Of a stretch of DNA of 64,000 nucleotides, positions 12,764-49,688 are shown piece after piece. The DNA comes from Hericium rajendrae (taxonomy: Eukaryota; Basidiomycota; Agaricomycetes; Russulales; Hericiaceae). The notes beneath the pieces are model-generated. The model saw only the letters and a list, made by a program, of their open reading frames with translations. It had not been told where the DNA came from and did no database searches. The position numbers and the translations under genes were made by a program. Location of the stretch: positions 2,796,501 through 2,860,500 of the forward strand of contig CM065879.1 of NCBI GenBank assembly GCA_033439255.1, given 5' to 3'. Every line of letters begins with the position of its first letter. Position 1 is the stretch's first letter.

Positions 12764-13427
12764 CAGTCGTGGTGTGCGGATAGCGTTCAGCGATAGGCAA
12801 ACGGGCGATGAGAACTGGATCGTCGTTCAGCGCTTCCTATACAAAAGCCTATCATATATGACCGCGGGCACCGTGTGCTTCTCGTACGCTTCCCAGCTCC
12901 ATGAAAGATAGCGGTATATCTGTCAAGCATGTCAGGTGGACAAATCGCAGTGAGTGCTTCCGTTACCAAAAGGATTTGCCAAGTTCATATCAGCACTGGC
13001 TTTCGCATGCTTTTAGACCGTGATTCAATTGGCTTCGAAGATATGATAAATTTGACAGGCAAGGCGTTCGAAGATACTGCCATGGTCCTATAATCAATGG
13101 GTCAGCGCGTATAGGTTCTCTATACCTGGGGCTTATCAGTGGGTTCAGGATAGGTGGGCGAGAAAGACAATGTACAACGGCAATAACTGAGCTAAATCTG
13201 CAGCACAAACCTTTTGATATTATCCGCTATCGGCGTCGTCTGGAGTGGATCAAGTCTGCAGCGATCGTCAGAAGCCGTACATCGGAATCACTTCGTTAGG
13301 TTGGCGTTCGCAAGTCATGATAAGGAAAAGATGCCTCCCATTCTATGGAGCGCCCCATCTAATGATATCAAAATGAACGCTGTCATCCTTCAGACGTATC
13401 GCCGCTATTAGATGCCCAAATGCGACA
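12764..13427. other. Intergenic between permease start and SprT-like stop
   Basis: About 660 bases with no convincing coding exon, RNA gene or repeat. It should hold the permease promoter. Confidence 0.4.
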
Positions 13428-23104: not shown

Positions 23105-23683
23105 CATCTGAGAAATTTAACAGTGGTATATAGCACTATGTAGCCTATATAGCTCTGATAGGGCCATAGCAGTCTCCTTTTCTACATAGCACTCTATACA
23201 TCTGGAAAAATGGTCCCTTGGGTGATAGCCGGAGTATAGCTACAGTAGCCGAACCTTGACTACCGGTGAATTACAATACATCAAACCTTGATATCCGGTG
23301 ACACAGCAATACTACAAACATGGGTCCACAGCTACAGTAGCTTCTGTAGCACTTGTCAATCACAAATGAAGAAAATAAAATTCTAAGTCATCTGGCTGCC
23401 AAATAAGCATGCACCACACCTTAATTTCAATACTCAAGTATATATGAACTGTCTGTACTGTATTTTAATTACAAAACATCAACTAAGTTACACATACCCA
23501 AGCCAAGCAGTTACCAGACAGTCCGCGCGATGAACGTGAACTAATCACATCTGCCTCAGTGCATTCAGCACTCAGCACGACATCAAATCTGGATGCCGGT
23601 GATTGTGTTGTTGGGTACAAAGGCGGGGGCATCGGGCGCGGTCACGATGAGATGCAGGTGCGGTCGCGGGGAGCATGCAGGAT

Positions 23684-23763
23684 GCGGGACGCGGGAGAGG
23701 CACTGGGAGTTGCGATGTAGGATGCGGGACGTGGGAGAGGCACTGGGAGTTGCGATGTCGAAC
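23684..23763. repeat. 40-bp tandem duplication in R1 copy A
   Basis: A 40-base unit (GATGCGGGACG...GCGATGT) occurs twice here and once in the R1 copy at 63,225-63,264. It is the only length difference between the two copies over the compared region. Confidence 0.8.
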
Positions 23764-23968
23764 GCAGTCGCGTTGAGCGTGCGGGACATGGGAGAGGTGC
23801 TGGAAGGTGCGGGGTGCACGTTCGTACCGCACATGCCATGCGTGTCACCTGGCCGAGCTGCAGCCAGTGCCGCAGGCTCGTTTGCTGCAGTGTACGGGCA
23901 CACGGGGCTCTGAAGCAGCCTGCGCAAGTCGCGCAGGGTCATGGTGCGTGTGTGGGATGCGAGAGGGG

Positions 23969-23975
23969 TCGTGGT
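23969..23975 (+). repeat. KDZ-1 target site duplication, left
   Basis: TCGTGGT precedes the left TIR and recurs at 38,776-38,782 after the right TIR. The uninterrupted R1 copy has a single TCATGGT at this place (63,473-63,479). Confidence 0.85.
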
Positions 23976-24095
23976 CACCAGTCCCAGCTATGAAATTATA
24001 TTGTGTACCAGCAACTTGCCTAAATCGTATTACAAAAACCCTGGCAGTTGCTGCCCGGGGCCTTGCCATGCACAATATAATTCACTTGTATTATA
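23976..24095 (+). repeat. KDZ-1 left TIR
   Basis: Starts CACCAGTCCCAGC; contains CAACTTGCCTAAATCG, a run AAAAACCC and TTGCTGCCCGGG, ending in an ATAATTCAC segment. The same order of blocks is found on the other strand at the right end. Confidence 0.85.
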
Positions 24096-24109
24096 ATGTA
24101 TGTCGGGGC

Positions 24110-24860
24110 CGCTTACCGGGCCGTACACTACGCAATGCTGCGCGCTTAGCGCGGCTACTCGCTCGGCACCGTGCCCGCTTCGCCTCGGCACCGTCCACCG
24201 CCCTGCGCGCTTCCCGCCTCGGCTACGCGCTCACCGCCTCCCGCCCGCCCGCCCGCCCTCGGCTACGCGCCTGGGCCCGCTCCCCACTGCCACCGCCGCC
24301 GGCTCTCCCGCCACCGCTCGCTCTCCGCCGCGCATGCCCCGCCTCCCACCTCGGCTACGCACCTGTGCATCTCCCGCCCTCGGCCCCTCAGCTACGCGAC
24401 TGCACGGGCCTCCAGCCACCGCCGCTCATCCCGCAGCACCTCCGGCGTCGTTGCCGCAACGCACGCCATCAGCGCCACTGGCGCTGCTGCCGTCGTCGCT
24501 GCTACGTCGCTAGCGTGCGCAGCCGCGGGTGCTAGTGCCGCGCACCGTTGCTGCGGCCCGTGTGTGGTTGCTGCGCGTGGCACGTGGCGTGTGGCCGGTG
24601 CGCGTGGTGCTGTTGCTAGGGCGTCGGATGGGGCTGGCGACAGCGTGCGCCGCTGCTGGGGTGCAGCGTGCCGTTGTTGGGGTGCCACGCGTCGCGCGCA
24701 GGGCCGCGGCGCGCGTTGAGCGATGCTCCGGGCTGCGTGGTGGCTGCGTGGCAGAACGCGAGGGGTGTGGGGGCGGTGGACGCATACGGCGGGCACGCTG
24801 GTGGGGGGGCGCGCTGGTGGGGGGCACGCGTGTTGGTGTCTTGGTGCTGGGTGCGAGCCA
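24110..24860. repeat. KDZ-1 left GC island
   Basis: CpG-dense low-complexity DNA starting with a block (CACCGTCCACCGCCCTGCGC) that recurs in El2 at about 43,966. The right half switches to GT-rich GTGCGTGTGG-like sequence. Open frames on both strands are low-complexity and I do not call them. Confidence 0.6.
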
Positions 24861-25860
24861 TAGCTACTAAGTTTATAACGAAAGTCCTATTATATTAGTC
24901 CAGAGCATGTTACAGTAAAGGTTATAAATGATAAAGGGCTCTATTAACGATCCATCCTTTATATCAGCCTATATTAGCCTATGGCTTTTAATAGCTTAAT
25001 AATATGGATAAAATATGCTTATAGCTTAATAGTATTGCTATTTCGGGTATAGTGCTTAGTAATAATACTATTTCGAAACCATTGATGCCCCTGGCCATCA
25101 AAACAGATGCTTCGATCCCCTTTTCGATGCTTCTTGATGGTCCTGTAGCAAATCCGGCTATAAATAGCATGCTTGTCGTTCAGACGGGCGCTTAATGATA
25201 TCTAGATCCAAGCACGGTCAACGATCCATTGATTGAACATATTATGTGGTCGACCGGAAATCTCGGGCGCTTCGGGCCACCATCTCCGCACGAGTTCTAG
25301 CCCAGGCACGACAAACGATCAATCTATTCAGTCATTGCCAGGACATTTCACGGGCGGCCCGGGCCGTTGTTCCCGCTCAGTGCTAAATTAGTATATGCAC
25401 AGTTGGGGCCCGGGCGGGCCTGTATCCCGAGCTTCCCCGGGCGGGCCCTGTCACCGCCCGAAACGTTCCGCAGCCCTCTGTTGCCCTTGCTACCCTATGT
25501 TTTTGAAACCTAAATATTGCGACATTGAGCGGTATCCGAAAGCTGCGCATGCCAGATCATACAGACCGGTAAACCACTGTTATTCAACAAAATCACGTGT
25601 AATAAAGCGGGCAACGAGTAACAACTATAGTAGATACAGGCGACAGGTTCGGAACTCAAGATATATATCCACAACGTTTGTAGATAATGAGGTCGTTGAG
25701 ACCGTCATCTTGCCTAACAAATGCACTCGGTACCGTTTTGAACGGTTTCCGTGTTGAACGGGTCCGTGGTGTGGTAGCGCTGGCGAGATTCCCACGCTAC
25801 GCGATCTTCGCTCTGCAGGCAAGTAGGTGAGTATCGACTTCGATGTGTATGACGTTGGAC
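24861..25860. other. AT-rich and mixed non-coding DNA in KDZ-1
   Basis: About 1 kb between the GC island and the acc1 stop codon. It is AT-rich until 25,380, followed by a GGGCGGGCC-rich patch near 25,400-25,450. No gene is seen. Confidence 0.4.
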
Positions 25861-28371
25861 TCACCGTTTCGCCTGGCTATCCCTCTCCTCGTCCTCCTCG
25901 TCCTCGTCCTGACCCTCTCCGTCAAGCGCCTTTCTCTTCTTCGATCCACCAACCTCCACCATCAACCGTGCCACCCACAATACATCCTCGAGCGCGTCAT
26001 TCACCTTGTCGACTTCTTCGTCCTCCTCGGCCTTATCGAACCACCAATTGAGCGTCATCAAGATCAGGCCGAAACCATTCTTGCCACTCTTTCTCAACGC
26101 TGGCCAACTCTCGTCGGCCTCTGCGGTGCGTTCAAGCGGCCAGGCTGTGCCTCGCGATGCAGGCTGCAAACTGCACCACCATGCGAGCCACCCCTCTGCG
26201 TACTGCTCCAGATTGTCGATCTTCGGCATTTTCGTGAACGGGCGGCCGTCTTTCTGCCACACCGGAACTTCGGCAGGCCGATTGCTGCCCAGCAACTTGC
26301 ATCGGTTGCTCTGTGTGCAGATAAGTACTTTAAATGCTCGTTGATAACGAAGCCACTGACCCTATCGTCTGCGAAGCCCAAGCTTTCTTCCATCTTTATC
26401 CAGAGGTTGACTAGCTCCTGCCAGTCATCATCAGATGCTTTGCCCACCAAATATTTTACTTGTGTGCCCATCCATTTCGGCAGCCCTTCAACGTCAATAT
26501 CGCTGGCGCCAGCCTTCGTATTCGCGTCGTCATCCTTGTCGTCGTCTTCGTCTTCGACATCCTCCTCCTCCTCTGTGACCTCGCCAGCTTCTTCGTCATC
26601 TGCGGATTCCCTGGCTTTGCCTCTGATAGTCAAGATAGATTATTGTTGTTCATCGGCTGCTAAAGTGACTTACTTGTCATTGGCTCCCTTCGCGTCTTTC
26701 CCCTTTTTCCCCTTCGCCTTCTTCTGTCGCTCCTTTGGTCCAAAGAGATCACTGGCCTTGGGGATGTTCCAGGCCTTGAGCTTCGCCTGTATCTCCGCGA
26801 CTCTCGCGTCGTGCTCTAACTCGTACGGCGACTTGCGGATTGTGTACTCCCCCCTGGCTATCTTCTTCTTGCACCATGCAGCTTTCTTCTTCGCCTTTTC
26901 AAGTGCAGCTGCCTCAGCCTTCGCTACTGCTGCATCGGCTGCCTTGGCCGCTGCTGCGTCGTCGGCTGCCTTGTCTGCTGCGGTGTCATCTCCATCGGCT
27001 GCCTTCTCTGTCTCGGCATCCTCTTCATCAGCTACCTTCTCTGCCTCGGTGCCCTCGGCTACATCCTCCGCGGCCATCGTCTTATTGCTTTCGTGCACCG
27101 TCGCGTCGCTCTGCACAGTCATCGTGCCATCCTCGCCATCAATCCCTGCTGTCGGTCGTGTGGATTCAGTCGCAGGTCCTGAGGCGGGTGTAGCACCTGC
27201 GCTGGAAGATGCGGCTGGCAAGCCACTTGCCCCGGAGGACGCGCCTTGGTCATTTCTCGGTGTCAAATCGCGCTCATGACAGATGGCAGGTGCTAGAGTG
27301 TCTTGTAAGTCACGGTCATTGGCCAATAATTAGTGTACTCACGATAGAGGCTACGCATAAACACCAGGAATGGATTCTCAACACATTCTGCATATTTCTT
27401 ATACGCCGCGCCAAACGTTCTCCCATCGCTCGAGCCTGAGTGAATGCTAACCCGATACGTGAGTACACGATTCTTTCATTTGAATACCGCGAGCTACTCA
27501 CGAAAACGCTTGCAAATTGCCGGCCATCGCAGGTACAGGTGCACCAAACAGGATAGTAACCATGCCCCCAGTCTTGTTTGCGAGCTCGCGTGCGAGATTC
27601 GTCGCCGTGCGCGGAAACGCGTCAATGGCACTAGCATAGGTTGGTTTGTATTACACCTTTACAACGAAGAAAGACTTACTCTTGGTACTTCTTGGCTTGG
27701 ACCAGCCGTGCCGCCTCAGCCTCGTCATGCTCGCCAATCTCAGCAAACTCCTCGACCAATTCGAAATCAGGATCCATGGCTTTCTCGACTAGTTGTTTGA
27801 CCTCGTCCGACTCCTGGAGCAGAAGTTCTCCGGCACGCTTGGTGTGCCAGGGAGTACTATGCATGGGCTTGTTGCCCTTGTTGATTTCCTCCGTCTGGTA
27901 TGCTTCATATTCGGGCACGATCACGTCCTTCAGCTTCGACTCCCAGAACAGGCGCTGATACGCTTGCGCTGCGGTGCGCTTTCGCTTGCCGCCAAGCTTG
28001 ATAGTTTTCTTGTGGCCTGTCTGACCCTGAACACTTCGCAACGAGTGGTTTCCGAACCATTGTTTGATGCGCTGCGACGCGTTTGATGCGTTTTTTTAGC
28101 ATCAGGACGCGCGCATTAATTTTTGGAATATCCTCACCTCTCGGATAGGTGGAGCGTTGCCTTCGGGAGGCTTGTCAGTGCCGGGGAAGTCGTTGAACCA
28201 GCGACTATAGGCCACGGGCCAAAACTCGCTGAGTTTGTTCGCTGCCTTGGCCTCAAGATGCGCCGGAATTAACTCGCGGAGTACTTTGACTTCCGGCTCG
28301 GTGGCCCAAGCGAGCTTGGAGTAGGTGCCCTTCTGAGTTGGGTTTGCAGGGTTTTTTTTCGTGCGTGGCAT
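25861..28371 (-). CDS. acc1: KDZ cargo protein of unknown function
   Basis: The ATG at 28371 gives MPRTKKNPANPTQKG, then a Trp/Phe-rich part (SEFWPVAYSRWFNDFPG), a basic stretch (KKTIKLGGKRKR), an aromatic/charged helix region (AYQRLFWESKLKDVIVPEYEAYQ), a conserved GGMVTILFGAPVPAMAGNLQAF-like segment read through an intron into IHSGSSDGRTFG, a long Ala/Asp/Lys/Glu coiled coil (27,250-26,690), an acidic run (EEEEDVEDEDDDKDDD) and a C-terminal WLAWWCSLQPASRG...KKRKA tail. Roughly nine exons; stop TGA at 25861. I recognise the type as a lineage-expanded Agaricomycete hypothetical family, but no enzyme motif is visible. It is transcribed divergently from the next gene. The broken gene acc1' is its paralogue. 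Confidence 0.72.
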
Positions 28372-28631
28372 AGTGTAGAGGTGGCTTGCGCAATACACTT
28401 CTCTCATCCAACAGGTCCTCCGGCTCTCTCCCATTCATAGGCCATGGGACAGCTGTCGAGGGCGAATCCGATATGATGCAAAGAGGGCTCACCACGCGGA
28501 CGTCGTCAAATAATCGCGTCAAAGGTCCGAGTATGGGGAAGTATCATTACCTATTTCATCGCGCTCCGTCCTCACATATAGACCCGGCCAGTGAGCTTAC
28601 CTCCCCTCATCCCTTCTTCCTTCTGCCCTCT
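28372..28631. promoter_or_regulatory. Divergent promoter between acc1 and the viroplasmin-like gene
   Basis: A 260-base spacer separates the two divergent ATGs. The broken outer pair (acc1' start 59,157 and gene at 59,490) has the same arrangement with a 330-base spacer. Confidence 0.5.
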
Positions 28632-29899
28632 ATGCCTGAGACCCCCGCCTCTAAGTCTGTTCCCAACTCCTCTACCCGCTTCGCTGGGGCAGGTCATCCT
28701 GCCGTGGATGTTGGCGGGCAGAGGGGTTCCGGCCAGACTGCTGGCGGCCAGGGCACGCGAAGCGATCGTCCCCCGCCCCCGACAGTTGAGAGCGTTAGTA
28801 AGTCTGCTAGTTGTAATCATTCATCGCGTCCCATGTCTGACACGTCTCAAAGCTGATGCCGACGAGGACGATTTGTACGATGGCCCCCCAGCATTTGATG
28901 ATATCGTGGACTCTGAGGTCGACATCGACGACATCGATGGTGCGGAGTCCGAGTGGGTCGTGCCCCCTCCCGTACCCCAGCCCCCACCGCTGTCCCCTCC
29001 CGCATTCCAGCCACCATCCCAGAGTGATGATGGACAAGATGCGAGGATCTATGTCATTACCAACGGTCGCCAGACCGGGATATTTCGTGGATGGTAAGCT
29101 CGTTATATCCCTCTCAGACCAAAAAGGCATATTAACCATCCTTTCAAGGCACCGTGTCGCGCCTTTAGTCAACGGCTTTTCCCATGCCGTGTTTCAGCGG
29201 TACCCTACCCGTGAGTCAGCGGACGCCGCTTGGGCTCTCCATCTCAGAATTCAAGAGGAAACTCGTGCCCGAGCTATCATGGATGCTGCCGAGGCTCGCC
29301 GCCATGCTGCTGAGGAAGTGCAGCTCCGTGCGGCGGAGAGTGCTCGACTTGCTGAATACATGCAAGGCCTTGGGCTTGGCAACCGGTCGGGGGCTGGCGG
29401 AGCTTCTCCCGTTGCTACTAATCACATTGCTACCCCTCGCGCCACCACCTCCGCTCCTATTCCACCACGTGGCGGGGTGTCCACTCCTTCCAGTCAATTC
29501 AGCCTGACAACATCTAGCTCGTCCTCCTCCCCAACCGTGCCTCCAGGAATCTCTGTCAATGTCAATGTCAATGTCCCGGGGCTGGGCCCTGTGCAGAATC
29601 ATCGCATGTCCGTTGTAAGTATTTATTGTATCCTACATGCATGTGGATGTTGACTGTCCATCTAGCATTATGGTGACCCCTCGTTGCAAGCCTCCGGGTC
29701 CAATGCAGGTCCAGCACCGGCTCCCACAGCGCATGATCACCCTCGCCGTTACTATGCTGTAGCTCGTGGCTACCACCGCGGTGTCTTCGACACGTGGCAG
29801 GAAGCTAGTCCGCTCGTCTTTGGGTACTTCAGGGCACTGTACAAGAAGTTCCGCACGCGCGAAGAGGCCATGGCTTGGCTCGACGACCATCCGTTGTAG
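28632..29899 (+). CDS. Double viroplasmin/RNase H1 N-terminal-like domain protein
   Basis: MPETPASKSVPNSS opens a Gly/Pro-rich head, then an acidic stretch (DADEDDLYDG, DIVDSEVDIDDIDGAESEW). Domain 1 (29,041-29,225, split by an intron) reads YVITNGRQTGIFRGW...FQRYPTRESADAAW. A coiled Ala/Glu/Arg helix (RAIMDAAEARRHAAEEVQ) and a Ser/Pro linker follow. Domain 2 (about 29,740-29,895) reads YYAVARGYHRGVFDTW...YKKFRTREEAMAWL and ends the protein at TAG 29,897. Both have the short Y-V-x-G-x-x-x-G-hydrophobic-W...F-x-T/S-R-E-x-A pattern of the caulimovirus-viroplasmin/RNase H1 N-terminal fold, which binds RNA-DNA hybrid or dsRNA. No RNase H catalytic domain follows. Three introns. Confidence 0.75.
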
Positions 29900-30443
29900 G
29901 TGTTTGTGCCCGGGGCAGGGCCTTTCCCGATATACATACATATATATAACCTCAACTCCATCTATGCTCCTGTGCCTGGACACTCTTGTTGCTTGCATTT
30001 CCTGGTTTCAACACCAGTTATCTCTTCTGTGTACTGCTCGTCTCCTCGCGGCCCCGTTTACCCGCGGTATGTCTACATGTTGTTGCTTGTCTCGCGCTTC
30101 ATACGTATTCGTGGCCATCGTAGTCTGTTTGAATGCTGTTCTTATGTCCCCCCGTTGCCAATATACTCTGCTCTGCCCTGAATGTGTCCGAACATGAGTT
30201 ATAAACGAGTGATCTTTCAATCTGAATGGCCTTTCGAATTTGAAGTCATGCCACGTGACCGCAGGCCAAAACGCCATTCGTCTGTAGAATCTAAACGATT
30301 GGGTGCACGATAAATCTTGAAAATAATGTTAGTGTATCTTCTTCCTTGCCCCAACCTCTTGGCAAATTTTTAGAGTGTGTTTGTCTGCATAATCTGTCTC
30401 AGCACTGTTCTCGCTTAGGATACTAAGCGAAACCGAGTCGGAG

Positions 30444-31272
30444 ATGGTAGAAGCCGCGTCGTGGCGTGCGCTACGGCTTGTCGTCTCTTTCCTCAACATG
30501 ACCTACTACACGCGGTATTTTTTATTATTACTAAATTCACCCAACCATCTGAACTCCAGCTCAATGATTTATCTTTCAGGCATCGTCAAGAACGCGTAGA
30601 GTATCAGCGCAAGTACCGTCGCCGCAGTACGAGTGGTCGTCGCAAGGTCGGACGAGCGGCGAAGCTTAGAGACGCAGCTCGTCCTGAAGACGATGGTCCC
30701 TCTTCCCTTTTTACAGGGCCTGGTGTGTGAGTACTACTTGTGAGAATCCTTCGCGCTAATAACATGTCTTTCCTCCTTGCAGCGATTCAATCATATCACG
30801 ATTGGGCAGTCGTGACCCTGCGCGTACGAAGGAGATGGCACAGGACGAAGAGTGCCGGTGGGACGAGGTGCTGACACTTCGCGAGACGTTCAAGGAGAAG
30901 TACAATGATGCCTGGAAGCAGCCTTTCAAGGCCTTTCTCCGCGACAAGCAAGCTGAGCTTATAAAGTGCCGCGAAGGAGTCTCCGCCGATTCGAGCGCGG
31001 TCCACGGTCTACGCCATCTCATCGCTGCATATCATCAAGAGCTCGAACATGTTGACCTAGTGGAGTCCCTGTATAGGTGGAAGGCTGAGGCATGGCATCT
31101 TATCTGGGTTGGTGCTTGGTACGTCTGCTTGTTCATCACATTCGCGGCCGTGCTCATTTCTTTTCAGTGTCCACAGGTTGTTCTTCAAGCGCAATTATCA
31201 CTTTTGATTTTGGTCTCGTACCGTGCACCCTGCGCGGAGACAAGCTCAATCTCATTTGACGATACATCTTAG
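30444..31272 (+). CDS. Small basic KDZ-1 protein, unknown
   Basis: Three exons: MVEAASWRALRLVVSFLNMTYYTR joined by splicing (donor near 30,513, acceptor near 30,580) to HRQERVEYQRKYRRRSTSGRRKVGRAAKL, then after an intron near 30,730-30,781 SRLGSRDPARTKEMAQDEECRWDEVLTLRETFKEKY...AYHQELEHVDLVESLYRWKAEAWHLIW. An uncertain hydrophobic tail (WYVCLFITFAAVLIS) may be intron read-through. The basic N-terminus suggests nucleic-acid contact; the middle is helical. I recognise no family. It lies between the viroplasmin-like gene and the transposase, on the same strand. Confidence 0.5.
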
Positions 31273-31581
31273 CACCTTCGTTGTGTACTGTATATCTTCT
31301 TTACGCCAGTCTGAGCTGTAGTTGTGATTCCTCATTGCAACGATGTTAAGTACCTCGTTCAACGTCGAGAATTTATTGACTTGGGATAGGCCCGGACAAT
31401 GCTCTTAACAATCGCCATTGATACAGCTGTGCCCAAGTCCAGACATCGGATGCGTAATATAGTTTAGTCATGGGAAATCACGGTCACGCGCCTCGTCACT
31501 CTTTAGTACACGAGTTGGTAAACGAAAGCGCTACCCAGGACTCTTGCGCCCACTCCCGGCATATCTTCCATCGATACACGC

Positions 31582-34500
31582 ATGCCAGGTCGCAAGTGCA
31601 AGCACAATGAACCCGTTGTGGTACCTATGGGTGGCATCCAGGAAACGGACCGTTTCACTCATAGCCTCCCTGCCGGTGGTGCAAGCACTGTTCCCCGCCC
31701 TTCGACCTCTCATCGTCATATCACCCTCAATGTGCCACAGCAGAAGCAGCAGAGACCGGCCCAGCGCACGAGATTTCATGAAGAAATCGAGATACCTTCG
31801 ATAGAGCCATCTGAAGATCCAAGCACCGAACATATACCACAAGACGACGCATACAGCATGGACCAAGGCAATGACGATGATATCATTGTCTGCGGCCCAG
31901 ATTCATCTCACGCAAGAGTAGGTCTCTGTTTTTCTTTAGGGAGTACCGGGCTGAACCTGCAATTAGCCCGATCCTATCCAAGAGTGGATCAAACATCAGG
32001 ACACGTACCTTGAGGAACTCCTGCGACTTGAGGGCCTAGGTAGTTTCGAAAACCCCCCGCCGTGTACCCGTTGCGAGGAACGGGTTGGCGCTCTTCGGTG
32101 CACCGATTGCACCTTAGGACAACTCTTCTGTGCGAAGTGCATCACCTCGGAGCACAGAACCCTTCCACTCCATCGCATTCAGGTAAATAACGTGCTCTAC
32201 ATCATCGATATGGCATTTGACTGACAGCGTGGATGGTAGATCTGGTGCAACGGCCTCTTTAGTAAATATACACTACAGGAGGCTGGCCTGCGCGTCCAGT
32301 TGGGCCACGATGGACGAGGTTGCCCACATCCGCGTCCACGCGAGGGGACATTGACGGTCATGGATGTCACAGGATTTCATGAAGTCGCAATTAACTACTG
32401 CGGCTGCGATATCTTGGGCTCGTCGCTTCCAATCGTGCAGCTTCTGCATGCCCGATGGTTTCCTGCTACTGTTGATCGGCCCCGGACGGTCATCACGTTA
32501 TCAGCCCTGCGCCTCTTCCACAAACTTACATTGCAGGGCAAGATAAATGCCTACGACTTCTACCATGGGATCACGGCCATCAATGATGGCACTGGTTTGT
32601 ATACGCCTGTGGTCAGTCCTCTTCCATTGCCTCCCTTTTTCTCTCCATTGATGGCAGTGCAGAACCGTTACAAGGAATTCATGCGAGCGATGCGTATGTA
32701 TCGCTTACTGTTGATGGCAAAGAGAGCCGGTCGAGGTCATGATGAGACGGGCATCAAAGGGACAAGCCAAGGCGAGCTGGTGGTTGAGTGTCCCCGCTGT
32801 CCTCAACCCGGGCAAAATCTACCAGAAGGATGGGAGAACGCGCCCGACTCGATAAAGTGGGTAGTTTTTTTGGTTACTTCATGAGCGGACATAACTGATA
32901 TTCGAATAGATGGATGTACTGTTTGTTGCTCGCGGTGGATGCCAATTTCAAACTCAAGCTTAAGAAGAAGAAAGACAAACAAACTGAGTTGGCGTCAGGC
33001 TGGGCGTATTTTGTCGAAGAGACGAGTTATCAACAATATCTAGCTAACTACGCAGCAGAGCGTGAGGTAAGCATTGCAAATCCTTTTTTCGTACGTCGAT
33101 TCTGATGGGGCACATAGTTGAAACACTGTGACTCGAACCATTCTGCAATCGACCATGCCAATGTGGCAACGCAGAAGCGGTTTGCAGTCACGGGCGTCGG
33201 CGCCGTTATATGCTCGCGACACTGCTATTACCGCAAGCATGGTGTGGTCGACCTTCAACGTGGAGAAAGGTCTGTATATATTGCTTCTGTTCTCAAGCGA
33301 CTCCGACTGAGATGTTGACAGATATTGCAACATGGACTATGCCGTGTTTTCCACCCTCGTCCTGACGGCCACATTACTACTCCAACTTCTTCTTTCGTAC
33401 GACATCGCATGCTCGTTCATGGTCCATTTCTTCGCACGCATGGCCAAATTGCCGCCGGCGCTCCGCTTTAATTTCACGGGTGTACAAGTTCGATGGGCGG
33501 TGCCGAAGTTTCATCTGCTGGCACATGGAGCAAAGTGTCAAGGGCCGTTTTCACTAAATTTCATGCATGGTGTCGGTCGTACGAGTGGTGAAGGTATTGA
33601 GAGCAACTGGGCTCTCACCAATCCCGCGGCTCTGAGCACACGCAAAATGTCTGCGGCGGGAAGACACGAAGTCCTCAACGATGTCTTCGGTGCGGTGAAC
33701 TGGCAGAAAACAACCAAATTGCGTACGTTTCTGACTGCTCTGCGTTAGCCTAACGTCTCGCTAACAAATTCGATCAAGGTCTCATGTTACACACTGCCCT
33801 TGAAGGGGCTTTCGAGCAGCTCAAGACACAGCTACTTATATTCGATGATCTCAACGAGACAGTACCCGAACAGCATACAAGACTGTGGGAAGAGATGGTT
33901 CTCGCCTATGAACGATCACCTCGGAATCCCAACCCCTACGAGGAGAAGGAAAAGAGTAAGTCGTATATTTTCTAAGTCCGGATGAAGCCTGATCGTTTAC
34001 AGGCACGACGTTGGCTGATGTACGCTGCGAGCTGCAACGGGAAGAGGCGGAGGAAGCGACGCGGGGCACGCTACCTGTTCATGAGATGACCGCGAGCGTT
34101 TTCTTGACGGTCGGGTTAGATCTAGAGGAACAACAGTAAGTTTTTTCCGTGCTGTGTCTACACCGTCTTGGCTGACCTGGACCATCCACTAGACGCACCC
34201 TCCGATCTCGGGCCAAGGGTGCTGCAACCACGAGCAATAAGAATGCTGCCCTTGGTGACAAGCGCAGCGTCTTGCGTAACCGTATGGCTACTTGGCGACA
34301 GGTCCAGGCAGTCTATATGCCTTGCGTGGCAGGACTCCTTGACGACCCTGATTTGCACGGCACAGACGGCACCGGCGGCTGACAGATGGACAACAAGCCT
34401 GAACTTGCCAAGCTCTGGCTGCCCTCCGACTTACCGCCTCAATATCGTGACTCACCGGGCATGAAAGAATTGCTCGATAAGGAGGTGCGACTGCGAGAGG

Positions 34501-35448
34501 CGCAGGCCGATGACGCGCTCCATCATGTTCGCCACCAGATTCGTGTGCGTATGGGACTGATTCACTACAAGAAAGCCAATGTCGACGGCCCCGGGCAGAA
34601 GGCCAACACACGGGCTCGTGCCCAGATCGCAGCTCTGACCGAGAAGCTCAATCGATATGTGGCGAGATATCAAGTAGCCCACAAGGTTCTCACACAGCAC
34701 AACCCGGGAGGTGACTGGCGTGTCCGGTTGCAAGTCCTCAAGGTGGACAATGTTCGGGCACCAACATCTCAGGAGGAAGGTCTCGGGCGCGGGCGACGAG
34801 AACTTGCATGGATCTGGCGGGTTCAACAGCAAGATGCTCGGGATGTAGTTCACGGCGAGGACACCACCGCTGACGAGGTACATGAGAGTAAGTCGTGCTA
34901 GTTCTCATCATGGACAACTTCGACTTAATATGATCCCCACAGGTATGCGAGCTGAATGGGCCGCGAACCGTGCCAGTGTCAGGTGCTGGCAGGAAGAGGT
35001 CGACTTGCTGCAGGAGGAGATGCGGCGTTCCATTGCATTCTTCGAATGGAAGGAGCAGGAGTGGTTGGACAGGCTTGGACGGCGTCGCAACATCCGAGCT
35101 GACGTCCGGTCTGGCCTTGACGCTTATGCTCGGCGTCAGGCTACTATGTACGGACTCCTCGCACTATCTTGCGTGGCAAGGTGGCAGCCCTTGCTCGTGA
35201 AGTTCAACATGCCCATTCCATGGTCCACCGCTAAGTACGATTTATCCACATGGTCTGAAGCACAATCTTCAGGCGATGGCGGCGATGACGACGAGGAAGA
35301 CGATGACGACGATGGCGATGACGACGACAACGACGGCAACGATGGCAACGATGGCGAATTGCATGACAGCACTATGGTGGACACAGACTCCACGCGGGTT
35401 GAAGTCGAGGTTAGCACCGCGGGCAGTCAGGGCATCGACTTAGCATAG
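31582..35448 (+). CDS. KDZ transposase with N-terminal CxC2 cysteine cluster
   Basis: MPGRKCKHNEPVV begins a disordered head, then the CxC2-type zinc cluster (CTRCEERVGALRCTDC...FCAKCITSEHRTLPLHRI, 32,059-32,180). The fold continues with DVTGFHEVAINYCGC and ALRLFHKLTLQGKINAYDFY. Likely catalytic DDE residues are in LLLAVDANFKLKLKKK (near 32,930), LLSYDIACSF (near 33,395) and GEGIESNWALTNP (near 33,595). An R/K-rich part, a helical C-terminal half and an acidic D/E/G/N run (35,270-35,360) follow; TAG ends it at 35,448. An in-frame TGA at 34,380-34,382 interrupts the C-terminal half after the catalytic core; it could be a CGA to TGA mutation or an error. About ten introns. This is the mobilising enzyme of KDZ-1. 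Confidence 0.88.
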
Positions 35449-37333
35449 TTTTTCTCGTGCCGCCCATTTTGGTAAATGTACTTCTCCTATTCATGAGCAT
35501 TGGGTAATGAGCATTTGTTTACGATTTTATATCTACTGAGATGTGGACAAAGTTTACAAAGTCCGTAAGTGGAAAAAAACCGCAGCAGCTAAGACCACAA
35601 CACAAGCATAAGTTCATGCCCGAGATGACCGATGGCATGAAATTTATGCTAAGTCGTATCCTGAGGAAACACCGACCGCCGAGGGCAGCGCAACACGATC
35701 GAAGTCAGTTTCCGAGGAAACACCGAAGCTTATCTCACGTATGTTCTTATTTTAGGCCGACAGATCGGAGATCTGGCTTCCAGAACATCAGGAACAAGAT
35801 AGAAAGAAGTCGAATGGGCTGTGGGAACAATTGGAAGCACAGTATATTGCCGCATACTAGCGGTATAGGAATAGAAGATGCCTAGAGGCCGAAATCCGGG
35901 GTTTAAGAAGGGATTACTAAGCTTATAAGGCTTTAACAACCCGAAAATACTATTATATAAGCCTAATATAGGGCAGGCTAGGTGCCGTGAGAAGTATCTG
36001 CCATACAGAGCAAGCAGCATTGCTTTATTAGCTTCTCCCCTTTGTTGCCGTTAGTGATTAATAGCTTATGCTGTAACATGCCCCCTACTATTATAATAGG
36101 GTTCTGTATTATAAGGTAAGTACCTACAGTAGTGGGTGCTCGGCAGGGTACACGCGTTGTGCGCGCGTCTTCGCTTGCGCGCTGCTGTTTACGTGCCTGG
36201 AGCGTGTTGCACACACTTGTATGCGCGTCCGGGCGCGTGGAAGAGGACGGAGGCGGGCCGGGAGCCTTGGAGGGCGTAGTCGACGACCGTGAAGGGCGCT
36301 GGATGCGCGGGTGGGATGCGATAAGGGCGACACGCGGGGAGGGACGCGAGATGCGAGAAAACTGCGGAGGTGCGCGTTCGAGGGCGGAGGGTGGATGGGA
36401 TAGGGTAGGAGGCAGGAGGAGGCAGAGCGAGCCACGTTGGCGCGGCTCAGAGAGTGCCGAACGTGGGTGGCTGAGCCCGAGGTGCCCGAGGTTCGAGGAG
36501 ACGAACATGCGGGCGTGAAATTGAGACCAATGTAGGCTCAAATTCGCTCATGACCATGGAAATAGGATAGATTTGAATGTATATACAAAGAATCGAACAG
36601 TTTTGGCAAAAATACGAGCTACAGGAGGAAATATACTGTAACCCTACATAACCCTAGTCTATAATTTGTACACTTCAGGCTTCATCACCTCGAAATGAGC
36701 CAGACCAATAATGCGAAACGTTTTCACTAGCTATGTAACATGTAAATCCAAAAGTACAAATATTTTTGTGCAGGTCTGAGACTTGGAGATTCGAAATACA
36801 CCTGGAATCTGGCCTGAAATAACCGGAAAAGCATCAATGTGGCCAAGATCCTATAGATCTGTGCCACCAAAAAATATAATAAAGTCGTTGCACACTGGTA
36901 TGATGTGCCCCAGCATAAATTAGAAGACCGATTGAGGGTAGGAGGTGGATATGCTAAGGAATTGCGATTCGAATTTGGTGCCCGGCGTGCCCGAGGCTAG
37001 GATTGGAGCTCGACGCGTTTGGCATCATTGACAAGCGCCGTCCAGTTAGACTTTCTTAACAGTATCTCGCATATATAGCACGTTCAGTCCATTCTATTCG
37101 CACAAAATCTCGTACGTACGTTACTACACTGTATCTACAGCTACTATATTATTCGTGGAATTTAACAAAATTTATCCACCGTAAACGTCGTGTTCGAATA
37201 TCGGCCAGCCTCGTTCGGTGCCCTGTTCGGCAAATGCCGATCGGCGCTATAATGCTCGTGGCTGAGGGGCCTGTCCTCTTCCTCCTCCTCCCATCAAGCG
37301 GGGACGATGTAGGGCTCAATAGCCCATGAATTC
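35449..37333. other. Non-coding KDZ-1 3' region with GC island
   Basis: AT-rich DNA with a short AGGAAACACCGA repeat at 35,662 and 35,713, and a GC island at about 36,130-36,520. Part of the island (CGCGTCCGGGCGCGTGGAAG) resembles El2 near 44,850. Downstream is AT-rich leader DNA with TATATAGCACG at 37,074. A promoter for the spliced leader at 37,334 may lie here. No gene is supported. Confidence 0.45.
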
Positions 37334-37397
37334 GTAAGTATCTCGTTCTCGAATGTGTTATTTATTCGCTTTGCTAACTATTTTCTACTTATTATAG
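37334..37397 (+). other. Predicted leader intron of KDZ-1 right end
   Basis: GTAAGTATC donor, TGCTAAC branch site and TTATAG acceptor follow a GGGCTCAATAGCCC dyad. El2 has the same arrangement at 45,877-45,939 behind AGGCTCAATAGCCT. A TATA-driven non-coding or unknown transcript is inferred. Confidence 0.5.
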
Positions 37398-38540
37398 CTT
37401 CCTCCACGCTGACGTGGCACGACAGGCCCCACCAGGCCCCACCACGACACCCCTCCATCTCCCCTCCCCGCGCTCGCAAATGCGCCCCGACGTCCCCACC
37501 ACACTCGCGCGTAATGACACGCGCCACGCACTCGCGTCCACCCTTTCCCGCGCGCACACCGCCGTTGTGTGCCGGGAGCATCCCTGCCGCGTCCGCGCGT
37601 CCCAGCCTCGCGTACGTGTACTCCAGCACAACACCGGCACGCCAGCATCCCGCGCGCGTGCAATAGCACCACGCCGGCGCGCCAGCGTCCGCAGCCAGCA
37701 TCCGCAGCCCGCGCCCGTAGCCCGCAGCCCGCGCGCAACAGCCCGCAGCCGGTGCGCCCAGCCCCTCGCCTGCACGCCCAGCACCCCGACCTGCCAGCAA
37801 CGCGACGCACCCAGCACCAAGCCAACGCGCCAGCACCTGCATGCGAGTAACAGCCCCTCGCGCCAGCACATCCCGCCTGCGCGTGACAGCACCACGCCCG
37901 CGCGTCCAGCCCTCCCCGCGCGTCCAGCCCCTCGCCCGCGCGCCCAGCACCTCGACGTGCATAACAGCCCCACGTCCACGCGCCAGCACGCCCTGCCCGA
38001 GCATGCCAGCACGCTCCGCCCGCGCGTGCCAGCACCGCAAACTGTGCACTAGCACAGCGCACGCGTGCCCAGCACCTCGCCCGCGCGTTCCGCATGCGCG
38101 CGCCAGCACCGCAACCCGTACCGCAACCCCGCACGCCACACCCCCGCGCGCGCCAGCACCGCGCGCCATGCCAGCATGCACTCCCATGTGTCCAATAGCC
38201 CCCGATTCCCCGCGTGCGTACTAGCACGCTGCGCTCATGCGCGGCGAGCCGCGGACCGGGTACTGTCCCTACGCCAACCGGACCGCGGCGCGCATGCTCT
38301 GCAGCATGTGCACGGCGAGTAGCACGCGGTGCGTGCGTGCAGTGCGTGCGTAGCCGCGGTGTGCGGGCGGAGCGGCACGAGCGAAGCAGGGCGGCGTCGG
38401 CGGGGCGGGACGGTAAGCGCCGGCGAGCGCGCGAGGAAACGGGGAGAAGCGCCGGCGAGCACGAAGGAAGCGCCGGCGAGCGCGAGGAGAAGCGCCGGTG
38501 AGCGCAGGTACGCGGGAGTGTCGGCAGGCCCGTAGCCGAG
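37398..38540. repeat. KDZ-1 right GC island with 17-24 bp arrays
   Basis: CpG-dense sequence of CCAGC/CCCGCGCG modules, followed at about 38,415-38,502 by repeated AGCGCCGGCGAGCGCG units separated by short purine runs. The same unit forms a longer array in El2 at 47,221-47,352. Frames on both strands are open but low-complexity. Confidence 0.6.
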
Positions 38541-38581
38541 AGCAACGAGCGCGCCGGTCGGTAACGAGCAGTAGCGATGGC

Positions 38582-38606
38582 GGCCGAGATCCTTAAGATC
38601 TTGGCC
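38582..38606. repeat. KDZ-family subterminal hairpin
   Basis: GGCCGAGATC - CTTAA - GATCTTGGCC, one G-T mismatch in a 10-bp stem. El2 has the perfect version at 47,414-47,438. It lies about 170 bases inside the right end. Confidence 0.7.
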
Positions 38607-38654
38607 CATATGTTTTTTTATGAATATCATATGTTTTCGCGGCACCCTGGGTGC

Positions 38655-38775
38655 TGCCTTACCTGTGTGAATTATAATGTGCCCGGCGACTGGCTGATCA
38701 GCAGTTGCCGGGGTTTTTCTAATACGATTTAGGCAAGTTGCCCTATATAATGTATTTCAGTGACTGGGACACCTC
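38655..38775 (-). repeat. KDZ-1 right TIR
   Basis: Read inward on the minus strand it starts GAGGTGTCCCAGTCAC and has the blocks CAACTTGCCTAAATCG, AAAAACCCCGGCA and CGCCGGGC in the same order as the left TIR. Confidence 0.85.
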
Positions 38776-38782
38776 TCGTGGT
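38776..38782 (+). repeat. KDZ-1 target site duplication, right
   Basis: TCGTGGT, identical to 23,969-23,975. R1 sequence resumes directly after it (GCGTACCTTG), as in the uninterrupted copy. Confidence 0.85.
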
Positions 38783-39638
38783 GCGTACCTTGTGCATGCC
38801 TCCATCTTGCGTATCGCTCTCAGTGCGCACCTCATCTGCTCACGGCCCAGAGCCTTCCTTCGGCGTGTTCTCCATGGCGCTGGGGCGTATGATGACTTGC
38901 ACGAGTCATGAGGGGTTGTGGTGGGCGTGTGGGATGCGGTAGAGGCGGTGGGGGATGCGCGTTGCGCATTCTGGCTACGCGTGTCGCGTGGTTCGCATGC
39001 AGCGACCGCGGGGCATCCATCGCGCTCGTGTTCGGTCAAAAACGATGGGATGGCGGGGTACGTCGGCGTACGCAAGTCGTGCGGGATAGGGGGAGGCGGT
39101 TGGGATGAGAGAGGCGATGTGGGGTGTGGCATGGGTGTTCACGCTGCGGACTTCCCACGATTCACGTTTGTTGGTCGCGGGTGGTCGCTCTGGCTCGCGC
39201 GCGGGCGATAATGGTGGCGGGGGGTTGCTGGCTGATGTGAGTGCATCACACGGGCTCGCGGATGCGGTATACGGTGCGAGGGAGGAGGTGCGAGGTGCGG
39301 GATGCACGTTTTGTGCGTGCACGTCGGGCAGCTGTGACGTAGGCACCGGCGCGACGGCAGAGGTGTCGTGTGCTTTGACGGGGGGCGACAAGTCGGCCCT
39401 GGATGTTGATCCTGCAAAGATGAGCCTTCGTGAATGTGAACATGAATGCTGCGTACTTACCTTTATTGTTTTCCACCGTAGTGCGCTGATAATAGTTGTG
39501 CAGCAGCGACTATATTAGAATTGCTGGCCTACATGCATGTGCAGGCCCTATATGTGCTGTAGGGAAAGCAGAAGTGAGTAATACACAGGGAAAATACGAA
39601 CCTTGGAGGTTGAAGACGACTTAAACAAAAATTTGCAG

Positions 39639-43749: not shown

Positions 43750-44320
43750 TTGTAACCCATTTTAAACCTGTACCAGTAATAACAGGAGGGAGGGTTGCAA
43801 ACTGTACCAATAAAAAGGGAGGGTTCAGGACCCAATCTGAACCATTCAAATTGCTCATTATAAATCCGAAAAAATCATTATAAATATAATACTGTCTGGG
43901 CACTGTCTGGGCCGTATACTACTCGCTATGTGCTTAGCGCGCCTACTCGAACGGCTCCCTTCGGCACCGTCCACCGCCCTGCGCGCTTCCCGCTTCGGCT
44001 ACGCACGTGCCGCCGCCCGCCCCGCCCGACCTCGGCTACGCGCCCGCCGCTGCCCGCCTCGCCCGACCTCGTCAACACGTGCCGCCGCCCGCCCCGCCCG
44101 ACCTCGGCTACCATGCTCGCCGCTCGTTCCCCGCCGCACGCCGCTCGTTCCCCGCCGCCGTCGCTCGCTCCCCGCACTGCTGCTGCGACGCGTGTCATCA
44201 GTGCCGTTGGCGCTGCCGACGACGCCGCTGCTGCATCGCGAGGGTGCATCGTGGGCGTTGGGTGGGCTGAGCGATGGGGCCCGCGCGCCGTTGTTGTTGC
44301 GCGTAGGCAATGGGCGTGTG

Positions 44321-44420
44321 GTGCGGGTGCTGGGCATGCGGTGCGGGTGCTGGGCATGCGGTGCGGGTGCTGGGCGTGCGGTGCGGGTGCTGGGCGTGCG
44401 GTGCGGGTGCTGGGAGCCCG
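44321..44420. repeat. 20-bp tandem repeat in El2
   Basis: Five copies of GTGCGGGTGCTGGGCATGCG with C/T variants. A second array of about five 20-bp units (GCGCGTCCTCCGCGTGCCAT) follows at 44,485-44,590. Confidence 0.85.
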
Positions 44421-46469
44421 GCGCGATCGCTGGGGACGCGGGTCATTGCTGGGGTGTGCGGGTTGTGGCTCGTCGGCCATGGGCCGTGCGCGTCCTCCGC
44501 GTGCCATGCGCATTCTCCGCATGCCGTGCGCATCCTCCGCGTGCCGTGCGCGTCCTCCGCGTGCCATGCGCGTCCTCCGCGTGCTCGTCCGCGTCCTAGC
44601 GCTCTGCGTACCGGTGCCGGGGTGCTGCGCGTCGCGTGCAGGGGTGTTGAGAGCCGCGGGGACGCGACGCGCAGCATGCAGGGGCACCAAGGACGCGATG
44701 TGCGATGTGTAGGGGCTGCGCGACTGCGCGCGGTGTGTTGTCGTGGCCGTGAGTGCCTGCGCTGCGTGTGTGAGACCGCGGGTGTCGGGCGCGCGTCTGT
44801 GTCGTTGCACGCATGTTCGTGCGCGTCCTGATCGACTTGTACGCGCTTCTATGCGTGTCCGAGGCGCGTGAAGAGGGCGGACGGCTGCTGGAAGCCGTGG
44901 AGGGTGTGGAGAGGCATCCGGGAGGGCGGGGAATGGGTGGAAGCACGAGCGGCGCGAGAGGCACGGGCCGCGTACGTGCTGTGACGCGTGCTGTGACGCG
45001 GCTCGGAAACTGCCGAGAATCGGCGGCTGAGACCGAGGTGCCCGATGCTGGAGCAGGGATGTTACCCCGCACGACTTCTGGAGTGTATTCTCCCTGATTG
45101 GAGCGAGTTTTATGTACCTAGAATATAGTACATTGTACATACAAATTTTCGAACAATTTAGAGAGTAATTCGAGCCACAATGAGTGACTTATTGTAACCC
45201 TACAGTAACCCTAACTCGAATTTCATGTAGCAGAGGCTTCATTTTGGAAGCTCTTACCTATCTAGCTGTGCAAAATCGTTTCTGATACTATCAATAATGT
45301 GCACACGAAGTTTGAAATTTTTTGGACTCGATTCCAGAGCTTGAGGCCCGAGATACACACAAAATATAGCTCATGGAACCGAAAATTCATGTATTTCGCC
45401 AGATCCTAAAGATCAAGACTACTTAAAATTATAATACAAGCTGTACGAGCTCTTCAAGCACTTAAAAACGCAGTTCACTAAGCCGATACAAGATGGGAGT
45501 AAGACATGATGCACAATTGCAGCTCGAACCTTGTGCCCGGCATGCCCGAGGCCTCGATTCGAGCTTGACGCATTTAGTCTTTCGCTCGATTTAGACTTTC
45601 TTATCAATGGCTCAGATGTTTCTCTTCTCTATTGCACTCAATTACTACCAAAATTTTTATTCAATTGTATTCAGACTAGCTACGTCTATCGTATTATTTG
45701 TAGAGTTTAGTTAAATTTATTTGGCCTTGAAAGACCTCCTCGACGACTCGGGACGAGGCATGTAGCCTAATTTGGCAATCGCTGAACCGTGTCGCAAGCT
45801 CGTACCTGGGGCTATCTTTCTTCTCTCCCTCCCTCAAGCGGGGCACAAATACGAGGCTCAATAGCCTCCATAATTCGTAAGTCTTTCTCTTCTCTTTTCC
45901 TATTCATGCGTTTGCTAACGAGATTTCATTTTTTTATAGCCTTAAACCGCGATGACATGGCACGCTGCACGCACCGTAACGCTGCCGCCGCTCATCTGCC
46001 CACCTCCGTCGCGCTTCCAAATGCGCGTGCGACGCTTCCCCGCGCCATGAAAGGGCACTCGCCGGCGCGCAAGACCCCGTGCTCGCAGTCGCACGCCGTC
46101 AAACTCACCGGAGGCGCGCGTGTCCCAGCCCCTGCCAGCTCCGTGCCCTGCGTCCCAGCCCCGAGTCCCCGCGCGCCTCCCAGCCCCGCATACCGTCCCA
46201 ACACCATGGCCGCGCACTCCAGCATTGCACCCACATCTCCAACTCTGCACCACCCATTCCCGCACCTCCCAGCTCCGTGCGTCCCAGCCCCACACCTCTC
46301 CCGCGCCCGTGTGCCCCAGCGCCGCGGCGCCGCGTCCAAGCCACGCATCCCAGCGCCGAGCCCCCGCGCACCGTCCCCGAGCCTCCACGCGCCGTCTCAG
46401 CCCCGCGCGCCGTCTCAGCCCCGCGCGCGCCATCTTAGCCCCGTGCGCGCTGTCTCTAGTCCCCCGCAG

Positions 46470-46575
46470 CCCCCGCGCGCTGTCCCTGAGCCCCCGCGCG
46501 CTGTCCCTGAGCCCCCGCGCGCCGTCCCTGAGCCCCCGCGTGCCGTCCCTGAGCCCCCGCGCGCCGTCTTCAGCC
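46470..46575. repeat. 21-bp tandem repeat in El2
   Basis: About five copies of CCCCCGCGCGCTGTCCCTGA-G, fading into degenerate copies up to 46,760. Confidence 0.8.
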
Positions 46576-47220
46576 CCCGCGCGCCATCTCCAGCCTCTGT
46601 GCGCCGTTTCCAGCCTCCGCGCACCGTTTCCAGCCTCCGCGCGCCGTCTCCAGCCCCACCCGCCCATTTCCAGCCCCGCGCCGTCTCTCCGCGCGCCCAT
46701 TTCCAGTCCCCCGCGCCGTCTCTAGTCCCCCGCGTGCCGTCTCCATCCCCGCACGCGCCGTCCCAGCACCGTGCCCATGCGCGTCCCACCTCCACGCATC
46801 CCAGTCCCCAGCCCCGCCTGCGCCATCCCAGCACCGCGGCCGCGTGCTGCAGCGCCATGCCCGCGCTCTCCACCCCACGTTCAGCCCCGTTCCCGCACCC
46901 GCGGTCCCAGCGCCGGGCGTGCTTCAATGCCGAGCCCGCACCCACGCACCAGCCCCAAGCCCGCGCTTCAGCGCCGTCCCCACGCGTCCCAGCCGCGAGC
47001 CCGCTCCACCCCGGCATCCGCGCGTGAATTCCGCCGGCGCACTCCACGCGCGGGAGCCATCGGCGGACGTGCGGCGAGCATAGGGGATGGCGCGTGCATG
47101 CTCTGCAGCGGGCGTGCGGCGAACGGCGCGCGCAACTTGCGTGCAGCACGTGCATAGCCACGGGGCGAGAGTGGGAACAGTAGGTGGTAGGCACCGTGAG
47201 CGGGAGGGAAAGCATGCGCA

Positions 47221-47352
47221 GAAGCACCGGCGGGCGCGCGTGAAGCGCCGGCGGGCGCGAGGGAAAGCGCCGGCGAGCGCGGGGGAAAGCACCGGCGAGC
47301 ACGGGGGAAAGCGCCGGCGAGCGCGGGGGAAAGCACCGGCGAGCGCGAGGAA
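47221..47352. repeat. 22-bp tandem repeat in El2
   Basis: About six copies of AAGCGCCGGCGAGCGCGGGG with one or two extra purines. The core is shared with KDZ-1 at 38,415-38,502. Confidence 0.8.
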
Positions 47353-47413
47353 GCACCAAAACAAGCGCCGGCGAGCGGATGTAGAAGCGCCGGCAAGCGT
47401 AGGTAGTCATAGT

Positions 47414-47438
47414 GGCCGAGATCCTTAAGATCTCGGCC
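47414..47438. repeat. KDZ-family subterminal hairpin in El2
   Basis: Perfect 10-bp stem GGCCGAGATC, loop CTTAA. Position relative to the right end corresponds to the KDZ-1 hairpin. Confidence 0.75.
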
Positions 47439-47624
47439 GATATGTTTCTTTAAGAATATAACATGTTTTTTGATATGTTATACCATACAAAACATATTTT
47501 ATGCAAAACATGTGAAGTTCCAAACATAGCATTTAGCCCGAAAATACTGCTTATAGTGTTACTGGTACAGTTGGAACCCTCCCTCCTGTTACTACTGGTA
47601 TAGGTTGCAACTGATCTACAGGGT

Positions 47625-49265: not shown

Positions 49266-49688
49266 TGTCACGGATCGCTCCATTTCTCTCCGCCTTCTTC
49301 TCTGCCATCAAGGCATCGCGTCGGTCATGTGCTCCAGCAGCCCCATCACATGTTCACTTCCTCACATGACCTGGGGCTATCCTTCACCCATGTCCTTGTT
49401 CCCCTTTGGGACATCCTATTGTTCTCCCTCCCATTGTTCTCCTTTTGGCCACCATTGTTCTCACTCTATTGTTCGACCCATTATGGTGTCCATTGTTCTT
49501 TTCCCATTGTCGTCCCAGTACTTATAGGCTCCCTGTCGCTCGCCTATTTCCCTAGATTGTCCATTTCGTCTGTACCGTACTGTACCTCCAATACAGGTCA
49601 CTGCACTGCTAGTCGCTCTCTGCTCTCTCACTCCCATCATCGCTGGTGACTTGGGTGGTTCTCTGCTGTCTACGACCGAGTCTTGACA
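49266..49688 (+). repeat. 5' LTR
   Basis: Starts TGTCACGG, ends GTCTTGACA; contains repeated CCATTGTTCT motifs and a TTATAGG box near 49,525. Compared with the 3' LTR it has CG instead of CA at about 49,573 and CA instead of CG at about 49,605. Confidence 0.96.

Follow-up and report, generated by a model that had tools for sequence, protein, structure and literature searches.

Does the interval 23,976-38,775 of a 64,000-nucleotide stretch of the Hericium rajendrae genome (assembly GCA_033439255.1; this whole stretch is the window, C2:2796501-2860500 in our contig numbering C1, C2 and so on) hold one large transposon of the KDZ superfamily, or more than one element? An earlier note on this DNA had described it as a complete 14.8 kb KDZ transposon. 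We are very confident that it is a nest of two cut-and-paste insertions, with an 11,278-bp KDZ transposon inside an outer element. Such nesting is ordinary, unlike the exchangeable ends around the body of the outer element, described below.

Two insertions in one interval

The outer element spans 23,976-38,775 (coordinates of the two elements and of the repeat around them are given on the + strand) and is 3,515 bp long once the nested KDZ element and a single copy of its target site duplication (TSD) are subtracted. Its left end (23,976-24,110, CACCAGTCCCAG...) and right end (38,641-38,775, ...CTGGGACACCTC) are bordered by the TSD TCGTGGT, at 23,969-23,975 and 38,776-38,782. The element interrupts a repeat, R1. 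The left part of R1 (23,182-23,968) aligns in two pieces, at 98.9% and 96.2% identity, to 62,724-63,479, and the right part (38,783-39,303) aligns at 95.6% to 63,473-64,000, both within an uninterrupted copy in the same window (62,724-64,000). The two flanks meet at 63,473-63,479 with a 7-bp overlap; the empty site there reads TCATGGT, a single CpG-type difference from the occupied TCGTGGT. A 160-bp R1 query across the site has 13 matches in the genome, six of them full length at 93-100% identity (the window's own copy is included, and another is 6 bases longer), and R1 is uninterrupted at five places besides the window's own copy. The occupied copy aligns as query 1-79 and 73-160, the same 7-bp overlap. 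As inverted repeats the outer ends score 110; no shuffle out of 1,000 exceeds 51.5 and no random pair of window pieces out of 2,000 exceeds 82. Their outermost bases differ (CACC at the left end, GAGG at the right end when inverted). The interval is a real inserted element with both ends defined to the base.

Genome-wide searches covered the 46.77-Mb assembly of 19 contigs. The left 20-base terminal pattern, with at most two mismatches, has 45 matches and its reversed control none; the right terminal pattern, at the same tolerance, has 48, against one for its control. Outer loci were taken from the end matches (40 scored out of 89 candidates for one end and 40 out of 79 for the other, with the letters fetched for most). 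Both ends are present in 34 of the 39 loci examined, window included, and one end is missing in five. Among the 34 two-ended copies, an exact 7-bp TSD is found at 22, an exact 8-bp TSD at two, and a duplication agreeing in 6 of 7 bases at three. Random re-pairing of the outer flanks gives a mean of 0.64 exact 7-bp TSDs, with a maximum of 4 in 2,000 trials. When each left end is joined to the nearest right end on the same strand, 42 end pairs result, of which 34 are 3.3-4.7 kb long and eight are longer (median 3.7 kb, shortest 3,420 bp). The segments of the window's element that are matched over more than 60 bp by the 33 other outer copies lie only at its positions 1-845 and 12,158-14,800. Three proposals of the earlier note are borne out by these results: the two ends fixed to the base, the TSD and the empty R1 site.

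The nested KDZ transposon occupies 24,855-36,132, with ends GAGCCATAGC...CTACAGTAG and termini GAG..TAG, between two copies of TGGGTGC (24,848-24,854 and 36,133-36,139). Its ends score 66 as inverted repeats (maximum of 52.5 in 1,000 shuffles). A left-end query matches from base 1 in 12 of 12 genome matches, and 10 of the 12 left ends that were read, window included, can be paired with a right end through a perfect 7-bp TSD (14 left ends were listed). In one of these ten, a C17 pair, the two ends are oppositely oriented, which suggests an inversion. The KDZ gene is present in three KDZ-ended copies: the window, C7:3040068-3075313 and C1:342979-369211. The C7 copy consists of five colinear blocks at 97-98% identity to the window copy, with three of its four block joints widened by additional DNA (about 11.2, 12.5 and 0.4 kb), and has the TSD CATAGCA. 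The C1 copy is colinear at 71-81% identity and has the TSD ACCATGT.

Empty sites also exist for the inner insertion. An outer copy (L023) continues through the inner site as ...GTGCTGGGTGCTCGG..., with a single TGGGTGC and no KDZ insert, and another (L020) likewise crosses it uninterrupted over a shorter match. Near the inner junction, nine of the 33 other outer copies match and four span it; the KDZ insert is in none. The C1 KDZ copy is nested too, inside another outer-type element and at a different point. On the empty counterpart of that element (L038), the left flank ends at 2992 and the right flank begins at 2986, and ACCATGT is 2986-2992. These empty sites show that the KDZ family has inserted into elements of this kind on two or more occasions.

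The KDZ, CxC2 and Cauli_VI domains all belong to the inner 11,278-bp element, so the "full gene content" assigned to the interval by the earlier note mixes two elements. Between the outer ends there is no KDZ gene that belongs to the outer element itself; the window's KDZ gene sits solely in the separately bounded nested element. KDZ matches in the genome numbered 172, and the 150 places tabulated from them are absent from 40 of the 42 outer end pairs. Between paired outer ends, these 150 include only the window gene and those in one 72.9-kb interval on C1, which was read in parts (the KDZ copy examined there is C1:342979-369211; two further KDZ genes lie at C1:402414 and C1:410214). The right part of the outer element's GC-rich body (36,140-38,640) is apparently noncoding. 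Six-frame translations of both outer arms have no Pfam match (E <= 0.1 for the left arm), and the best-conserved outer block is interrupted by stops in every one of the six frames in 31 of 31 copies with at least 300 bp of it, among 34 copies. Judged by these frames, the outer body is apparently noncoding.

There is almost no chance that the full 14.8 kb forms a single autonomous KDZ element with the ~3.6-kb copies as its internal-deletion derivatives. Common ends, a 7-bp TSD and many short copies are as expected of non-autonomous derivatives, but the junction in L023 keeps its target sequence intact, and no outer element appears in the 1.5 kb to the left of the C7 KDZ copy. The 11,278-bp middle is bounded by ends and a TSD of its own and recurs independently on C7 and C1 with different TSDs, which refutes the single-element view. 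The inverted repeat core that had been offered as the KDZ terminus is absent from these other KDZ copies, which have ends of their own. Correcting the KDZ boundary keeps cargo and end motifs from being assigned to the wrong transposon.

Because of the nesting, the order of insertion is R1, then the outer element, then the KDZ element. In the sequence of events that we propose, the first two steps can be read at the junctions: a 3.5-kb element (approximate length) in which no gene is recognised entered R1 and duplicated TCGTGGT, and the KDZ transposon then entered it at 24,848-24,854 and duplicated TGGGTGC. The CxC2-KDZ transposase presumably cuts and joins the ends of its own element. The outer element was probably moved in trans, because it has no recognised transposase of its own.

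Some observations weigh against this interpretation. Seven of the 34 two-ended outer copies have no convincing TSD (agreement in 0-5 of 7 bases and no 8-bp TSD either). The inner junction is aligned across in just four of the 33 other outer copies, in a stretch that diverges fast; of the copies that span it, L021 carries a short deletion there and L041_042 has one changed base. No transposase acting on the outer element was found, and there is room for a multi-exon transposase gene without a Pfam match inside the outer body. Unless splicing removes it, a single stop at 34,380 interrupts the reading frame of the window KDZ copy beyond the KDZ domain, so that this copy may no longer encode the full protein.

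A body shared by unrelated ends

The interiors of KDZ-ended elements of about 3.4 kb match the interiors of outer elements. We built a profile of 3489 positions from 26 outer bodies (those of the 34 shorter than 3.9 kb, with 150 bp cut from each end) and compared it with 91 targets using nhmmer. It matches eight of nine left halves of KDZ-ended copies that lack the KDZ gene, with best E values from 4.7e-250 to 4.1e-17; the left half of L053 is the sole miss. Relative to the KDZ ends, the body has the same orientation in five and is inverted in three. Two of the KDZ-ended copies (L057 and L058) are 99.4% alike and hence not independent. The profile also matches the right third of one of these KDZ-ended copies.

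The window contains the same body between a third kind of ends. At 43,918-47,472 (+ strand), six nhmmer pieces (E 1.3e-152 to 2.7e-19) together span profile positions 2-3475 of 3489, and the terminal inverted repeats (TIRs) around them lie at 43,765-43,813 and 47,559-47,606, with 90% identity over 49 bp. The TSD of this third-type element is uncertain, with one candidate (TTGTAAC versus TTGCAAC, 6/7). The profile has no match in the KDZ element itself, in window positions 1-23,975 or in three reversed controls. Body pieces are also scattered through these transposon-rich places, because the profile matches three of nine left flanks of KDZ-ended copies and four of 66 flanks of outer copies.

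Within each kind (outer, KDZ and third), the two ends match each other above 300 shuffles, with scores of 109.5, 65 and 85. None of 12 end comparisons between kinds rises above shuffles. Because ends of different kinds match no better than shuffles while the profile spans all three, the ends are unrelated and the body is common to them. At its right border the body looks the same in outer copies, third-type copies and the KDZ-ended copy of C2, down to a hairpin, GGCCGAGATCCTTAAGATCTCGGCC, in which C2 has one different loop base. At the left border, outer and third-type copies resemble each other, and KDZ-ended copies align less well.

How could one body come to have such ends? One bold reading, to which we give a little less than an even chance, is that a passenger body of about 3.3 kb, apparently noncoding, has been given three or more mutually unrelated sets of DNA-transposon ends within one genome, and lies in either orientation with respect to the KDZ ends, through KDZ landing followed by rearrangement or gap repair. 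KDZ elements would land in body-bearing elements, and the window and C1 copies may be caught at that stage. A later rearrangement or gap-repair event would leave the body between KDZ ends, where it would move with another transposase. The manner of end exchange is inferred. We consider it unlikely, though by no means negligible, that the body is itself the mobile unit and was inserted into short TIR elements rather than being given new ends. The constant right border just described and the constant left border in outer and third-type copies would agree with a mobile body, but an outer end pair without the body was never seen (the shortest of 42 is 3,420 bp).

A shared body with exchangeable, unrelated ends offers a concrete setting for asking how non-autonomous elements switch transposase, a question already posed, and not settled, by small coral elements, the CMITEs (PMC2872659). 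The CMITEs are likewise non-autonomous, with differing TIRs and a conserved internal region of unknown origin. As described there, they are about 100 bp long, with a 75-base internal region and piggyBac-like TTAA target sites, whereas the elements described here have a body of about 3.3 kb, unrelated ends, and the body in both orientations. Our case goes beyond that precedent. A literature search for shared bodies with different ends surfaced PMC2872659, and further prior reports may exist. The hAT families of Marasmius oreades (PMC9674265) are likewise a case, in a mushroom, of an autonomous element accompanied by shorter relatives that are non-autonomous. Those relatives have TIRs in common; here it is the body that is shared, between ends that differ.

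Candidate enzymes for the outer element

The 7-bp TSD of the outer element fits a KDZ enzyme of the Kyakuja kind or a hAT7-like enzyme; neither was identified. The chances are evenly balanced that a KDZ transposase other than the nested one mobilises it. Fungal Kyakuja elements make a 7-bp TSD according to PMC12730594, and non-autonomous elements with the KDZ ends of the nested family carry the same body. On the other side, the outer ends are no more like KDZ ends than shuffles are, the tabulated KDZ places between outer ends are limited to the window and the C1 interval, a hAT-fold element of the same genome also makes a 7-bp TSD, and two outer copies have 8-bp TSDs.

A hAT7-like transposase is possible but more doubtful. 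A 7-bp TSD is described for hAT7 in rust fungi (PMC12730594), and the genome contains the element just mentioned, with the 7-bp TSD GCACCAG; relatives of its protein have a predicted fold that resembles hAT/Hermes. The ends of this element (TGACTAGGAGCAAC) differ from the outer ends, with no genome-wide search made for others, and the two 8-bp TSDs count against a hAT7-like enzyme as well.

Outer end pairs longer than 4.7 kb could contain such an enzyme between their ends. Five of the eight were readable far enough, and all five are nests, the window among them. C16:55638-65948 (L035/L036) has a 6,657-bp insert encoding DUF6589, with the 8-bp TSD GCGCGGCT and ends TAGTCT..AGACTA. C18:122980-133646 and C7:2386821-2392933 have inserts of 7,098 and 2,657 bp, both with CATC..GATG ends. 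C2:655673-663235 contains a 3,831-bp element with a 7-bp TSD; a 715-aa protein encoded there was rejected as the outer transposase because its element has TIRs and a TSD of its own. In C8:1512461-1520705, the half nearer the right end has no Pfam match in the one frame compared and no 200-aa frame. The 72.9-kb C1 interval with its nested KDZ copy is another of the eight. The long pair C3:3239832-3246167 was left out of the reading.

DUF6589 (PF20231, of unknown function) is encoded in the C16 insert with its own ends and 8-bp TSD, which suggests that this domain belongs to a DNA transposon; one copy was seen. A literature search on DUF6589 found no paper. The CATC..GATG inserts (7,098 bp in L041/L042 and 2,657 bp in L030) have apparent 2-bp TSDs, and PlavakaB termini, as described in PMC12730594, resemble them.

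The KDZ gene, its relatives and neighbouring elements

We predict the KDZ transposase gene at 31,967-34,898, with eight introns of about 45-57 bp whose borders were inferred by eye. It encodes a CxC2 cysteine cluster (32,273-32,596; Pfam E 2.7e-34) N-terminal to the transposase core, and the KDZ domain PF18758 is found in two frame pieces (32,917-33,700; E 2.6e-18 and 8.2e-32). A Cauli_VI (RNase H1 N-terminal) domain is encoded upstream in the same transposon (29,747-29,878; E 2.4e-16). The inferred splicing keeps the frame open to the stop at 34,380 if 32,239 is taken as the last base of the first intron; moving that border upstream by three bases gives an extra in-frame stop there. The C1 copy has its own stop, further along than that of the window. 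The KDZ superfamily was reportedly defined by Iyer et al. 2014, and the nested element has the features of the superfamily: PF18758, defined ends with a 7-8 bp TSD, and an N-terminal cysteine cluster. Its protein has 305 homologues; among the 120 listed, the best has 58% identity and carries PF18803 and PF18758, and the closest are from Dentipellis, Artomyces, Auriscalpium and Hericium.

The ratio of nonsynonymous to synonymous change (dN/dS) between the window and C1 copies, taken from the best alignment of each piece, is 0.01-0.13 for the pieces of 32,240-34,898, save 34,176-34,379 at 0.25. It is 0.31-0.49 in four pieces further upstream (0.31 for 31,967-32,221), and 0.34 and 0.75 in two frames downstream; 28,856-29,653 was not comparable. 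Because of the values of 0.01-0.13, the comparison of the two sequences shows the KDZ gene to have been under purifying selection while the family spread. A 478-aa frame at 25,843-27,279 is not called a gene, because it has neither a homologue (0 of 7,985 scored candidates at E <= 0.001) nor a Pfam domain. One reverse frame of 24,855-30,000, scanned separately, has no Pfam match at E <= 0.1.

Our statements on KDZ groups rest on PMC12730594 (Kojima 2025). The Kyakuja elements of Agaricomycetes described there belong, like the nested element, to the KDZ superfamily and have a 7-bp TSD. They are described with TET/JBP, CA..TG ends and no TIRs, whereas the nested element has GAG..TAG termini and imperfect TIRs, and so lacks the CA..TG termini without TIRs of Kyakuja. 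We found no TET/JBP match in the window frames scanned with Pfam, nor within 168 kb of any of the three KDZ-bearing copies. The genome has 46 TET/JBP matches (38 above the family cut-off), 36 of which are within 6.5 kb of a tabulated KDZ place. Many KDZ matches of equal score have a TET/JBP match some 3 kb away (such as C5:103394/106630 and C8:692159/695395) and apparently form a family distinct from that of the window.

The Cryptococcus elements KDZ1, KDZ2 and KDZ3, according to PMC12810828, resemble the nested element in size (about 9.2-11 kb) and in having a KDZ transposase with a CxC cluster, TIRs and short TSDs. They differ in having CxC1 and TIRs of 139-241 bp, where the nested element has CxC2 and short imperfect TIRs. 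Their TSDs are 8 bp in KDZ1 and 4-8 bp in KDZ2 and KDZ3, compared with 7 bp here.

Two further observations concern KDZ-ended copies on C17. At C17:429260-436231, two KDZ-ended elements have apparently swapped TSD partners, with one end pair oppositely oriented, as after recombination between copies. The KDZ end at C17:312309 was at one point paired with C17:273902 (38 kb); that pairing was dropped, and its TSD joins it to C17:309207 (3.1 kb).

Differences between close copies are mostly CpG transitions. These account for 31 of 31 differences between outer copies L015 and L017 and 63 of 76 between L028 and L032, for 22/23, 9/10 and 1/3 in three parts of the R1 pair, and for 26 of 33 in 1.6 kb of the KDZ element compared with C7. 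In the more distant outer copies of the window and L021 they account for 158 of 355. The pattern fits deamination of methylated CpG, and because of it divergence probably overstates age.

The window also contains a long terminal repeat (LTR) retrotransposon at 49266-56366. Its LTRs are 99.3% identical, it has an apparent 5-bp TSD (TGTGG), and its domains are protease, reverse transcriptase, RNase H, integrase and chromo.

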